64,000 nt of DNA from an uncultured Gammaproteobacteria bacterium. Lineage in GTDB: Bacteria > Pseudomonadota > Gammaproteobacteria > Eutrophobiales > Eutrophobiaceae. Shown here in pieces: positions 44,236 to 49,028 of this stretch. A program made the translations under genes and the position numbers. The stretch is taken from positions 712,573-776,572 of the forward strand of contig CALSOP010000002.1 in assembly GCA_943788005.1 (NCBI GenBank). Reading direction: 5' to 3'. The first letter of the stretch is position 1. Each line of letters opens with the position of its first letter. A model generated the notes under the pieces. It was given only the letters and a program-made list of their open reading frames with translations. It was not told the DNA's origin and searched no databases.

Positions 44236-46362
44236 ATGTCAGGCATAACAATATGGGTAACTACAATCCTGTCGCTGATGGGCTTGGGAATAGCCTTCTT
44301 TTACATGAAGAAGGTTGTAAGTATACCACTTGATCTTGGGCTGGATGAAGCTCAGGCAAAGAAGCTAACCTTCATCCACGGCGCTATTGCCGAAGGAGCC
44401 ATGGCTTTCTTGAAGCAGGAATACAAAGTCCTGACGATATTCATGGTGGTATTTGCCGCCATTATCGCCATTCTGATCAACGATACTCATACCCCTGATA
44501 TTCATGAGGGTATCTATACCGCTATCGCTTTCCTCTTTGGTGGCGCGATATCCATCGCTTCTGGCTATATCGGCATGAAGGTAGCGACTCAAGGCAACGC
44601 TCGAACTACGGTTTCTGCGAAGAAAGACATTTCCGCAGCTTACGATGTGGCCATTAACTCTGGTGCGGTAATGGGATTTGCCCTTGTAGGACTAGCGACC
44701 CTCGGACTGGTTATCATCTATGTGGTGATGAGCACCTTGCTTGCTGACCTTGGTCCTGAGAATAACCACATCCTTATGGAAGTGATTGCTGGCTTTGGAC
44801 TAGGTGGTTCTACAATCGCTTTATTTGCACGAGTTGGCGGCGGTATCTTCACTAAGGCTGCAGACGTTGGTGCTGACCTGGTAGGTAAGGTTGAGCAGGG
44901 CATCCCAGAGGATGATCCCCGTAACCCTGCCGTGATCGCAGACAACGTTGGCGACAACGTGGGTGATGTTGCTGGCATGGGCGCTGACCTTTTCGGTTCT
45001 TGTGCAGAAAGCACCTGTGCTGCAATGGTTATAAGTGCGGTAGTTTTTGCCGGCAACCCAGATGCAATGCTGTTCCCAATTTTGATCAGTGCTGTAGGTA
45101 TTCCAATAGCCTTGCTCACTAAACTCTTAGTTGGCGTAAAGACTGAAGACGACGTGGCGCCAGCGCTGATGAAGCTACTAATTATATCCAGCGCCATTAT
45201 GGCAGTGGTTATGTACTTCGTTACTATTGCTCTGATTCCAGAGCAATTCGAATTGAACGGCGCTGACTATACCAATCTCGGTGTTTACCTCTGCTTCTTG
45301 GCTGGATTGGTTTCAGGCTTGGCGGTTGGCTTATTAACTGGCTACTACACTTCTGAAAAATTCGGCCCCGTAAAAGAAGTCGCAAAGTCTTGTGAGACTG
45401 GTGTTGCTACTAACATCATCTACGGCCTTGCACTCGGCTATAAGAGTACAGTGCTTCCTTATATTGCCATCGCGATAAGCATCTTCATCTCTTGGGAGCT
45501 CGCAGGCATGTACGGCATCGCTATTGCCTCTCTAGGTATGCTGGGTAGCTTGGTGCTCACTCTTACTATTGATGCTTACGGGCCTGTTGCAGACAACGCC
45601 GGCGGTATTGCTGAGATGGTGGGCCTAGAGTCAGAAGTTAGACGTAGAACTGACATCTTAGACTCTGCTGGCAATACTACTGCAGCGATTGGTAAAGGAT
45701 TTGCCATCGGTGCTGCAATATTGACTTCTCTAGCTTTGTTCGCGGCCTTTATTACGACTGCCGAAACATTGCGCGGTGAGCCTATCTCCATGAGCTTGTT
45801 GGAGCCTCTGGTTTTCACTTTCTTGTTTGTTGGTGCAGTTTTGCCTTTCTTGTTCTCTGCCATGACTATGAAGTCAGTTGGTATAGCGGCATTCGCGATG
45901 ATCGAAGAAGTGCGTCATCAGTTCAAGACGATTCCAGGCATCATGGAAGGCACAGGTACTCCTGACTATGCGAAATGCGTAGCCATCTCAACGCAGGCGG
46001 CTCTAAAAGAAATGATAGCTCCTGGTGTGTTGATCATGGGTTCGCCAATCGTCGTTGGCTATCTGTTCGGTGTTGAGGCAGTTGCCGCTATGTTGATCGG
46101 TTCATTGGTCACCGGTGGTGTACTTGCGATCTCTTCCTCTAACAGTGGCGGCGCTTGGGATAATGCTAAGAAATATATCGAAGCAGGTAACCACGGTGGC
46201 AAGGGCTCTGATGAGCACACTGCAGCTGTTGTTGGTGATACGGTTGGTGATCCGATGAAAGATACTTCAGGTCCTTCACTGAACATTCTTATCAAGCTAT
46301 CTGCAATTCTTAGCTTAGTATTTGCTCCATTCTTCGTACAGTACGGCGGCATCTTGATGTAA
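44236..46362 (+). CDS. hppA: Membrane-bound H+-translocating pyrophosphatase, K+-dependent type
   Basis: 708 residues, about 16 membrane helices. The PPi site is [20 protein letters not shown], then [32 protein letters not shown] has Ala where K+-independent enzymes have Lys, so it is of the K+-dependent class. [10 protein letters not shown] has its Glu one helical turn later than sodium pumps (DLFES), as in plant H+-PPases. The protein couples PPi hydrolysis, probably reversibly, to proton pumping. A GGGG precedes the ATG. The codon use looks that of a highly expressed gene. It would serve the PPi-PFK encoded 6 kb upstream. Confidence 0.95.
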
Positions 46363-46450: not shown

Positions 46451-47064
46451 GTGGAACAGAATCCAGACGAGAAATTCCGTAACATTACTGATCCACTTGA
46501 TGCAGTAGGTAACACCACTAAAGGTTACGCAATCGGGTCTGCAGCGTTAGCCGCATTGGTTCTTTTTGCTGATTATACGCATGGTCTGGAAATGGCAGGT
46601 AAAGCGTCGGAGCTCTCTTTGTCTAATCCGACGGTAATTATCGGCCTGTTCATTGGCGGCATGATTGCTTTTCTGTTTGCTGCAATGGGCATGGAATCAG
46701 TGGGTAGAACAGCAGTATCTGTTGTGTTGGAAGTGCGCAGACAGTTCAACGAAATCCCGGGCATTATGAAAGGTATCGGCAAACCTGATTACTCGCGTGC
46801 AGTTGATCTACTTACTGCATCAGCGATTAAGGAAATGGTCGTGCCATCATTATTGCCAGTGCTTGCGCCGGTGGTGACGCATGGGATAACGCGAAGAAAT
46901 ACATCGAAGACGGAAACTGTGGCGGCAAGGGTTCAGAAGCCCATATGGCAGCAGTAACGGGTGATACCGTAGATGATCCGTATAAAGATACAGCGGGTCC
47001 TGCGATTAACCCTTTGATCAAGATCATTAATATTGTTGCATTATCCATCATTCCATTGATCTAA
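46451..47064 (+). pseudogene. Remnant of a K+-independent-type membrane pyrophosphatase
   Basis: An open frame of 168 residues (46451-46957, GTG start) matches only the C-terminal third of HppA ([58 protein letters not shown]). The GNTTK signature is that of the K+-independent class, unlike the intact upstream gene. Four codons seem lost after GNTTK. Near 46860 the frame breaks and about 40 residues are missing; the C-terminal end then resumes in another frame ([20 protein letters not shown] ... [14 protein letters not shown]) to a TAA at 47062-47064. It is a decayed separate paralogue, not a duplicate of the neighbour. Confidence 0.85.
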
Positions 47065-47089: not shown

Positions 47090-47119
47090 CGCCATGGGTA
47101 ACCCTATGGCGCATTTTTT
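47090..47119 (+). terminator. Intrinsic terminator after the pyrophosphatase remnant
   Basis: CGCCATGGG and CCCTATGGCG pair around TAA with one mismatch bulge, followed by CATTTTTTC. It lies 25 bases after the remnant's stop and argues that the remnant was once a transcribed gene. Confidence 0.75.
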
Positions 47120-47156
47120 CATGTTCATGGATGAACTGTACGTTGCGGGTGCATGG

Positions 47157-47636
47157 ATGCACAAGAGCAACGTTCTTCAACGGAAAATAATAATTTTATT
47201 ATCCTCTATCTTCATTTGTTCAAATGTCTCAGCTGAATCATTGCGCGAATTTCACCAACGACAATGCAAACAAGAAAGCTGCGAACGTGCCGCTGATATG
47301 TTGGAAGGCGAACAACACGCAGAGCGTATTGTGATGTTGGGTGATCGCTTTGCAGCAGCGCTTGACCGTTTAACGGTGGAAGAAGATAACAAACCAATGT
47401 TAGGCGATGCCTACTTACTTGTACTTGATGATTATTTCAAACGAGAAGCCAATAATGGAATAAAAAAAGGCATGACCGATTACATGCTTGCTCTTTGTGC
47501 AGATCATTATCATGATTATTGGCGCAACAGAAAGATGTGGTGGCCTTCTGATGATGCGGGCAGACCGGATTGGTCAACAATTTATTATTACATTGTTGAC
47601 CATTATTATGGCTATTGCTTAAGACAGTCTCTTTAA
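47157..47636 (+). CDS. Small exported protein of unknown function
   Basis: 159 residues from the ATG at 47157. The frame stays open to 47094, but that would start inside a terminator hairpin; this start gives a signal peptide instead (KIIILLSSIFICSNVSA, cleaved before ESLREF). The mature part (about 133 residues) has four Cys, is rich in charged residues and aromatic residues (DHYHDYWRNRKMWW, IYYYIVDHYYGYC) and contains CKQESCERAADMLEGEQHAE. I recognise no family. The spacing and Cys suggest a disulfide-bonded periplasmic protein. Confidence 0.65.
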   Translation: MHKSNVLQRKIIILLSSIFICSNVSAESLREFHQRQCKQESCERAADMLEGEQHAERIVMLGDRFAAALDRLTVEEDNKPMLGDAYLLVLDDYFKREANNGIKKGMTDYMLALCADHYHDYWRNRKMWWPSDDAGRPDWSTIYYYIVDHYYGYCLRQSL

Positions 47637-47648
47637 ATCGCCGATGTG

Positions 47649-48404
47649 TTAAGCAGCTTTAGCTTCATCAAGCTTCTTTATTGCTATACCAACATCAAGT
47701 GCTTCAAACCAATCGAGGAAACGCTTTACATCGTCGCCTTTAAATATCCGGCCATGTTGTGGCGCCATCATGTCTATATCCAGCTTTCGAACCCGCGCAA
47801 TCCAATCATTTTTCGCTTCGTTAGAAGGCATCCAGCGTTGATGGAAAAGTGTCATATTTTCAGTATGGGCCTTGAAGTCTTCAACAAACATTCCCGATTC
47901 GGGTGGTTCAAGTGCCGCGCCAACATCGCCACTCATTAGTATTTTAGCTTTTGCATCATAAACGTGATAATTACCCGAAGCGTGCAAATAATGCGCAGGA
48001 ATAAAAACCAGCTTGGTTTTGTTTAAGACAAGTTCAGAGCCTTCATCTGGAATACCTACATATTGAATATTGTTACAACCGAAATGACGAATAAACCCTT
48101 CCCATAACCAAGGGGCATGTAAACGGGTATGCGGCAATGCCTTATCCCATAGACCTAAGGAAGAAATAATGTCCGGATCTTGATGTGAGGCAAAAATTTC
48201 AGTGATATCTTCCAGACGAACATGTCGGGTTACTGACGCCAACATCGCGGAGAAGGTCTCTATGCCACCAGGATCAAGCAACAAACAACGATTCCCGTCC
48301 TTAACCAGGTATTGATTTGTATCAATGATCTTTTCAGGCTTGTCCGCGTCACGTCCAAAGAAGATCCATTTATAACCATCATCAAACAATATAGTGTCTT
48401 TCAT
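47649..48404 (-). CDS. Diiron metallo-beta-lactamase-fold protein, ODP-like
   Basis: 251 residues from the ATG at 48404, which has an AGGA upstream (a GTG at 48419 is the alternative). The diiron ligands of flavodiiron proteins are present: H74-Q-D76-P-D78, His141 in AHYLHASGNY, Asp160 in LMSGDVG and His217 in PQHGRI. The flavodoxin domain is absent. Stand-alone proteins of this kind (ODP) sense oxygen or bind peroxo-iron in the chemotaxis system of Treponema. Its partner here, 18 bases upstream, is a miniature chemoreceptor tip, which strengthens the reading as a sensor. Hydrolase activity is unlikely. Confidence 0.85.
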   Translation of the reverse strand: MKDTILFDDGYKWIFFGRDADKPEKIIDTNQYLVKDGNRCLLLDPGGIETFSAMLASVTRHVRLEDITEIFASHQDPDIISSLGLWDKALPHTRLHAPWLWEGFIRHFGCNNIQYVGIPDEGSELVLNKTKLVFIPAHYLHASGNYHVYDAKAKILMSGDVGAALEPPESGMFVEDFKAHTENMTLFHQRWMPSNEAKNDWIARVRKLDIDMMAPQHGRIFKGDDVKRFLDWFEALDVGIAIKKLDEAKAA

Positions 48405-48422
48405 TCTATTATTCCTCACACA

Positions 48423-49028
48423 TCAATGGTGCGCCAATAAGTCGTCGCAGTCGTTAACAATCATGGTAATTTTTTTCGACGCAGCGTCTACATTTTCAGA
48501 CACTACCTGTAAACTGGTTTCATACTCTTCAGCCTGTGTTGCTTCCACTCTGGAGCAGGTCGAAATCACTGCTGAAGCGCGCATCTGGTTTTTAATTTCC
48601 TCTAATAAATGAATAAGTCTGGCCTTATCTTTTTCTAATTCTATTGTGTGTTCCGATAATCTTTCTGATGCTTCTTGTATTAACTTTTCTACTGATACCG
48701 GGACGTCTTCACCAATATATTCTTTGGCCGACAGTAGTTTTTGATAGACTTCTTTTGCGCGCAGTTCATTTACGGCAATCCGTGACACCTCCAACGCTTC
48801 TTTATTTATGGCATTGACCAGCGACATCGTTTCGTAGCCCATCTCGTCTATGTAGTCCGTTATTGGCCGGAAACCATTTGCCTTTTCACCGGCACGTTCT
48901 GCAATAGCCTTGGCATTTTTTGCCGCAAGAGAAATCTCCTTTGCGATATGCATGACAGAGACAAGATTGCCTGCAACAGTAGCGGCTGACACAAAAAAGG
49001 GGCGTTTATATGTATTATATTTTTCCAT
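48423..49028 (-). CDS. Miniature methyl-accepting-type signalling protein
   Basis: 201 residues, all helical coiled coil, with no membrane segment and no sensor domain. Residues 20-66 follow the chemoreceptor tip pattern: HIAKEISLAAKNAKAIAERA then GEKANGFRPITDYIDEMGYE align with the receptor hairpin (IAxQTNLLALNAAIEAARAGExGRGFAVVADEVR) at the I-A, L-A, N-A, R-A-G-E and G-F positions, though degenerate. The rest (about 95-190) is a second coiled coil (LIQEASERLSEHTIELEKDK). It could present a CheA/CheW-like contact to the ODP-like protein encoded next. No che gene is in the window. Confidence 0.75.
   Translation of the reverse strand: MEKYNTYKRPFFVSAATVAGNLVSVMHIAKEISLAAKNAKAIAERAGEKANGFRPITDYIDEMGYETMSLVNAINKEALEVSRIAVNELRAKEVYQKLLSAKEYIGEDVPVSVEKLIQEASERLSEHTIELEKDKARLIHLLEEIKNQMRASAVISTCSRVEATQAEEYETSLQVVSENVDAASKKITMIVNDCDDLLAHH

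Follow-up and report, generated by a model that had tools for sequence, protein, structure and literature searches.

The closest described counterpart of the locus analysed here is found in Treponema denticola where, according to the available excerpts of its description, the oxygen-binding diiron protein (ODP) senses oxygen for chemotaxis; its partner is a receptor that has no sensing module and is able to modulate CheA (PMC7666581). The accessible part of a review adds that ODP directly interacts with its cognate receptors (PMC6978683). Like ODP (TDE2498) and TDE2496 of T. denticola, as far as those excerpts describe them (PMC7666581), our locus genetically couples an ODP to a receptor homologue devoid of transmembrane and sensing modules. 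Another family of chemosensory systems enters through its gene neighbourhoods: according to the available text of PMC7184735, it is not clear what early-stage F7 arrays do. We report here that many gammaproteobacteria, methanotrophs among them, have an ODP gene paired with a two-tip receptor gene, an arrangement that probably feeds oxygen information to a chemosensory array.

The pair was found in a 64,000-nucleotide stretch of DNA (hereafter the window; C2:712573-776572, GenBank contig CALSOP010000002.1 of assembly GCA_943788005.1) from an uncultured gammaproteobacterium of the Eutrophobiaceae. Both genes lie on the minus strand with 18 nt between them, the receptor-like (tip) gene first, and a first-pass annotation of the bare sequence had their coordinates, strand, lengths and spacing right:

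48423 to 49028, minus strand: first gene of the pair, a miniature two-tip chemoreceptor-like protein (201 aa), assigned from its family profile against PDB receptor tips, MCPsignal matches and ODP adjacency.
47649 to 48404, minus strand: second gene of the pair, a member of the oxygen-binding diiron protein family (251 aa), assigned from PF19583, PDB entries 6qrq and 6qnm, six ligands and its place on the tip-linked side of the ODP tree.

The ODP reading frame encodes 251 aa counted from an ATG, or 256 aa from a GTG start 15 nt upstream. Its product scored 246.5 bits against Pfam PF19583 (cut-off 27.2), and its nearest solved structures, 6qrq (E 4.1e-63; 'Oxygen-binding diiron protein') and 6qnm (E 1.3e-53), are both named as oxygen-binding di-iron proteins. 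All six diiron ligands (H74, D76, D78, H141, D160 and H217, in the HxDxD form) are present, carried by the motifs ASHQDPDI (HQDPDI being residues 74-79), HYLHA, SGDVG and PQHGR, and the flavodoxin domain is absent, the only Pfam matches at E ≤ 1 being the ODP and Lactamase_B profiles; on both counts the first-pass annotation was borne out. Among tip-linked ODPs, the window's included, all six ligands are kept in 66 of 79. D160S is found in 11 (L123, L134, L135, L141, L145, L148, L152, L153, L157, L159 and L162), and H74N occurs together with H141Y in a further two (L119 and L124). All 13 of these proteins sit in loci linked to che genes, where one would expect function to be best preserved, so even che-linked ODPs do not always retain the full diiron site. 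The substitutions argue that some members may sense through another metal state or may be losing function. As natural variants, they could be used to separate the metal site from signalling.

The tip protein gave a single-sequence match to chemoreceptor tips in PDB over residues 22-82 (E 6.7e-4). A profile of 41 aligned members of its family reached receptor tips at E 4e-10, with the ten best matches all receptors, and both halves aligned to receptor tips by hhalign; the first-pass annotation had seen the likeness to the signalling hairpin in residues 20-66. Pfam MCPsignal was matched at E ≤ 0.01 by 30 of the 41 members, not including the window protein, which fell under the Pfam cut-off (10.9 vs 34.6 bits). 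Matches of the profile to unrelated PDB proteins, which begin at E ~0.002, and Pfam hits of single members were taken for coiled-coil noise. No sensor module, HAMP or transmembrane region was found in the tip protein among Pfam domains at E ≤ 1; two short hairpins take up its 201 aa, a length that leaves little room for methylation helices.

The annotation had described a receptor reduced to its tip; the homology to receptor tips held, and the single tip did not, there being two in tandem:

48810 to 48971, minus strand: first tip, residues ~20-73 (NAKAIAERAGEKANGF at 38-53), placed by matching residues 10-108 to a receptor profile and by invariant positions.
48693 to 48734, minus strand: variable loop between the hairpins, residues ~99-112, the only internal insertion site.
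48459 to 48596, minus strand: second tip, residues ~145-190 (CSRVEATQAEEYETSLQVVSENV at 158-180), placed by matching residues 109-201 to the receptor profile and by conserved positions.

Against a profile built from 13 ordinary receptor tips, residues 10-108 matched with an hhalign probability of 94.8 (E 5.5e-8) and residues 109-201 with 95.2 (E 2.9e-8), both with a score of 48.9. Column shuffling (100 per half) brought the scores to at most 24.2 and 20.8, and reversal of the two alignments to 13.0 and 15.6; this loss of the receptor match rules out an ordinary coiled coil. The likeness of the two halves to each other is weak (probability 31, E 5e-4; score 24.0, vs at most 15.1 in 100 shuffles of one half and 16.4 on reversal). 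Since each half matches receptor tips alone, the tip protein probably mimics a dimer of chemoreceptor tips within a single chain.

The two tips have diverged in different ways. Tip 1 carries N38, A39, A46, G47, F53, T57 and I60 in all 83 aligned sequences, and tip 2 carries R160, E162 and L173, each in 82. Both tips align without gaps to residues 371-404 of Tsr. At the equivalent positions tip 1 keeps N381 (83/83), R388 (81/83) and F396 (83/83), while E385 has become I in 72 of 83. Tip 2 keeps E385 (82/83), E391 (68/83) and G390 (66/83), has mostly lost R388 (Q in 54, R in 21) and has L for F396 in 82. Several residues that make trimer contacts in Tsr are lost in one tip or the other. Relative to the window protein, the single internal site with an insertion in at least 5 sequences lies after residue 109 (78/83), and the four segments taken as helices have hydrophobicity periods of 3.4-3.6. 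From these patterns we infer that the chain may fold into one four-helix bundle in which the two tips sit side by side, much as they do in a receptor dimer. Very divergent tip proteins of 171 and 197 aa were also seen at L055 (7062-8314) and L071 (9677-11007), where the RAG motif of tip 1 is lost and an ODP is still downstream.

The pairing itself is highly conserved. A scan of named genomes gave 161 tip relatives, 80 of which were taken into the counts; these 80 loci include near-copies (31 are left at <80% identity, minus tips >230 aa and those identical to the first set), and some are the same records as genomes of our related-genome set (e.g. L088 is G003 and L089 is G011). An ODP lies downstream on the same strand within 400 nt in 78 of the 80 (77 within 300 nt; L108 at 389 nt), and the two loci without one end at contig ends 111 and 142 nt past the tip gene. 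This rejects chance pairing and agrees with the first reading of the two genes as a dedicated pair. So far as sequence can decide, none of the findings that the first-pass annotation had named as refuting it was seen. Within a set of 144 genomes, the window's own included, a strong tip relative (E ≤ 3.2e-29) was present in eight others, each with an ODP directly downstream, and so was a ninth, weak one (G127; E 5.5e-5) with the same arrangement; three further matches, in open frames of 574-659 aa, were read as ordinary receptors. One genome, G085, has two different tip-ODP pairs.

The association is a property of one ODP clade. Among stop-to-stop reading frames in loci of the related genomes, 31 distinct ODPs of ≥180 aa matched the window ODP (E ≤ 1e-12): 12 of the tip clade with a tip gene upstream, and 19 others without any within 600 nt. 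A tree of 59 rows has a single branch (support 92/94) that separates the 40 tip-linked ones, the window's included, from the rest; the program warned of long branches among the rows that are not tip-linked. A link of all ODPs to tips was rejected, 0 of 19 outside the clade having one; by eye, the neighbours of 12 such loci are mixed. Pair loci come from Gammaproteobacteria including Methylotuvimicrobium, Methylobacter, Methylomonas, Chromatiales and Immundisolibacteraceae, from a Bathymodiolus endosymbiont and from some records labelled only 'proteobacterium'. In a class-wide profile search a strong tip (E ≤ 5.2e-30) was found in 22 of 369 genomes, followed by a gap to 5.6e-12. Most of the weaker matches listed belong to longer open frames, and most span profile positions ~14-80 (tip 1) or 60-110 to ~204 (tip 2), the pattern that ordinary receptors would give by matching one tip or the other.

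Of 12 genomes in the window's genus, three carry the pair and six have CheW; G001, G007 and G009 have che genes and no pair. Purifying selection seems to act on both genes in this genus, with dN/dS of 0.10 (window vs G003, dS 1.8) and 0.19 (G003 vs G011) for the tip gene and 0.05 (window vs G003, dS 1.5) and 0.06 (G003 vs G011) for ODP; at dS 1.2-2.0 synonymous sites are close to saturation or beyond it, and one of the ODP values, with dS 27, is useless. The convergent gene at 47094-47636 was rejected as a member of the system, as it lies on the opposite strand and matched no Pfam or NCBIfam family at E ≤ 1; it encodes a 180-aa protein, by eye perhaps secreted, that stays beside the pair in G003 and G011. 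Further along, a partial second copy of an H+-pyrophosphatase gene (46451-47051; profile positions 419-560) stands just after the 708-aa gene at 44236-46362. By eye its frame seems shifted near 46.9 kb, as an antisense ORF (46827-47051) resembles the ORF found opposite the C-terminal region of the complete H+-pyrophosphatase gene.

The first-pass annotation had seen no che genes nearby. This holds for the window as far as MCPsignal, CheA-dimerisation and CheW go, which gave zero matches there, but not for the family: cheR, cheD and/or cheB lie upstream on the same strand in the examined flanks of 34 of the 80 loci, or in 31 when only the 61 with 3.5 kb or more of upstream sequence are counted. 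L132, with only a 110-residue receiver-domain match, was left out of this count. The other 46 loci have no clear che gene in the flanks examined, and 19 of the 80 flanks have <3.5 kb upstream. Given the che genes beside the pair in those 34 loci, the pair is not a che-independent module by design.

Two methanotrophs, Methylotuvimicrobium buryatense 5G and Methylobacter tundripaludum, give the fullest arrangement, with all genes in one direction: cheY-cheA-cheW-MCP-cheW-...-cheR-cheD-cheB-...-tip-ODP. M. tundripaludum has parA between the second cheW and cheR, and M. buryatense has genes for an McpA-like receptor, a STAS protein and a HATPase-like protein between cheB and the tip gene. CheR, CheD, CheB, the receptor and STAS of M. 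buryatense were confirmed against Pfam, with a weak HATPase match, and the remaining methanotroph labels were assigned through similarity to G003 genes. An endosymbiont locus (L146) has a SpoIIE-type phosphatase (Pfam) at the position of the HATPase-like gene, and G141 has a divergent tip-ODP pair flanked by cheW and cheR. In the window's genus, the F7-like operon of G003 encodes a receptor (L086, 9464-12283) whose domains are Globin (60.3 bits), PAS, HAMP and MCPsignal; a haem sensor may thus serve this array alongside the ODP pair.

For 50 of the 80 the pair genome was examined for CheA, which was present in 49; the exception, G145, is the same genome as G011. With a score of at least 450 bits against the CheA of the F7-like operon of G003 as a proxy for F7, nine of the 10 pair genomes and 21 of the 134 others have F7-like CheA (Fisher p 2.2e-6, without phylogeny correction and with G141 counted as pair-less); 21 genomes therefore carry it without the pair. 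Outside the window's family (G053 and up) the counts were 7 of 7 vs 17 of 84 (p 4.3e-5, again without phylogeny correction). G011 carries the pair and flagellin, and CheA and CheW matches are absent from its 87% complete genome.

The window's own genome has an intact tip-ODP pair and, as assembled, a fragmentary chemosensory complement. Its sole MCPsignal match is at C2:258874 and its sole H-kinase_dim match at C8:10214; flagellin gave no match. The cheA product is 85% identical to its G003 counterpart over ~454 of 691 residues, after which an insertion-sequence copy follows (cheY is also present), and the lone receptor gene stands directly after another copy. The sole CheW match is a fragment (C3:259864; 73% to the F6-type CheW of G003 over 63 residues) that adjoins a copy at a contig end. 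This insertion sequence is 1358 bp long, and the 2.4 Mb genome contains no fewer than 40 full-length copies that hardly differ from one another; the count is a lower bound, as 40 of 59 candidates were scored and two copies in L171 were outside the list; examples are C8:10722-12079 (L075) and C2:776712-778069, which begins 140 bases past the window end. Either the chemosensory systems of this genome are decaying, with a recent insertion-sequence burst, or the assembly (85.5% complete) joins and ends at these repeats. With the F7-like cheA truncated at an insertion sequence, the pair could be an orphan in this organism, unless part of its genome is missing from the assembly.

We favour, with moderate confidence, the reading that the pair is a compact two-protein gas or redox input for a CheA-type chemosensory array, most likely of the F7 class. 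ODP, with the flavodiiron-type beta-lactamase fold that its homologues suggest, would bind O2 (or NO, or would report Fe(II) or redox state) at its diiron site and would touch the 200-residue single-chain receptor with its tandem tips. This chain would be a four-helix bundle whose two tip hairpins lie opposite the H2-H3 loop, and it would take the place of a receptor dimer next to CheA/CheW. The state of ODP would shift the ability of the bundle to hold or control the kinase; by analogy with T. denticola, the signal would pass from ODP through the two-tip protein to CheA/CheW, which would be controlled or recruited. The ligand may be NO rather than O2, and the role may be that of a brake or decoy rather than an input. 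More tentatively, in that it could well be wrong, we suggest that a natural single-chain pseudo-dimer with specialised tips (N381/R388/F396 in tip 1; E385 and mostly E391 in tip 2) and a dedicated diiron ODP is among the smallest receptor units known, taking an O2/NO signal to F7 arrays.

Three other accounts were weighed against this one. The pair could act as a scaffold or brake, the two-tip protein binding CheW/CheA or capping receptor tips as a decoy under ODP control; O2 or redox state would then alter how the array is assembled instead of signalling along a receptor-like path. We regard this as unlikely, though it draws on the degeneracy of the tips, each short of a different part of the consensus (E385 in tip 1; mostly R388, and F396, in tip 2), and on the report that ODP deletion altered CheA ordering in T. 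denticola, where the available excerpts judge ODP possibly not integral to the array (PMC7666581). The changed positions are, however, strongly conserved in the family, and a specialised receptor fits them just as well. Less probable still is a che-independent O2, NO or Fe regulator with another output, its tips being relics. The 46 loci without a clear che gene near the pair and the absence of CheA and CheW matches from G011 speak for it, as does the window's own genome, where the sole cheA match is truncated but the pair is intact and seems to be under purifying selection. Yet CheA is present in 49 of 50 pair genomes, the pair co-occurs with F7-like CheA, and che-operon placement recurs in divergent lineages; moreover, completeness is 85.5% for the window's own genome and 87% for G011, the latter with flagellin.

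To the notion that ODP is an enzyme, an O2/NO scavenger or a zinc hydrolase with the coiled coil as its scaffold, we give very little credence. Relatives of the ODP fold among flavodiiron proteins are reductases, and the window ODP matches PF00753 Lactamase_B (63.6 bits) and, weakly, the flavorubredoxin model NF008887 (36.3 of 635 bits). There is, however, no flavodoxin domain to supply electrons, and the partner is a homologue of receptor tips. Zinc-dependent hydrolases of the metallo-beta-lactamase fold carry an HxHxDH metal motif; a check of the window ODP sequence did not find it, HxDxD standing in its place. Motif and domain content, together with the oxygen-binding diiron proteins as closest solved structures, argue against the window ODP being a flavodiiron reductase or zinc hydrolase.

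Should the sensory-input reading be true, the natural two-tip receptor would show the minimum that a chemoreceptor needs to reach CheA/CheW, and which subunit each contact needs. Methanotrophs need O2 yet live at low O2, and a diiron gas sensor feeding a chemosensory array would be ecologically meaningful for them. With the O2-sensor pair at the ends of F7-like operons in cultivated methanotrophs, what at least one such group of arrays senses could be put to a direct test.

We found no description of a tandem-tip receptor with ODP, or of its F7 linkage, in the open-licence literature searched, which is weak evidence of absence. In the available text of PMC7184735 the words ODP, lactamase, globin and STAS have no hits. 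By the stage-1 F7 order given in that text, the M. buryatense operon comes close, with genes for cheY, cheA, cheW, a receptor, cheR, cheD, cheB, an McpA-like receptor and STAS; it differs in having one cheW after the receptor and in the addition of the tip and ODP genes at the operon end (PMC7184735). Our loci also resemble the ODP-MCP operons of Muok et al. 2019, known here through the available part of PMC7319448, in which ODP genes lie beside MCP genes in two gene orders; that text makes no mention of a tandem-tip receptor for them. Natural and synthetic single-chain receptors likewise have two receptor signalling domains per chain according to the accessible text of PMC4692393, but each unit here is little more than a tip, both units are divergent, and the gene is tied to ODP.

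The annotation had held that the pair would be a new compact module, a claim that needs narrowing: since ODP-receptor operons and single-chain receptors are already known, including, in the excerpts on T. denticola, an ODP with a sensorless cytoplasmic MCP (PMC7666581), the novelty lies in the miniaturised two-tip receptor and its link to F7. Unlike TDE2496, which the same excerpts describe as a sensorless MCP homologue, the partner of ODP here is a protein of ~200 residues with two degenerate tips in tandem and with ties to F7-like operons in gammaproteobacteria.
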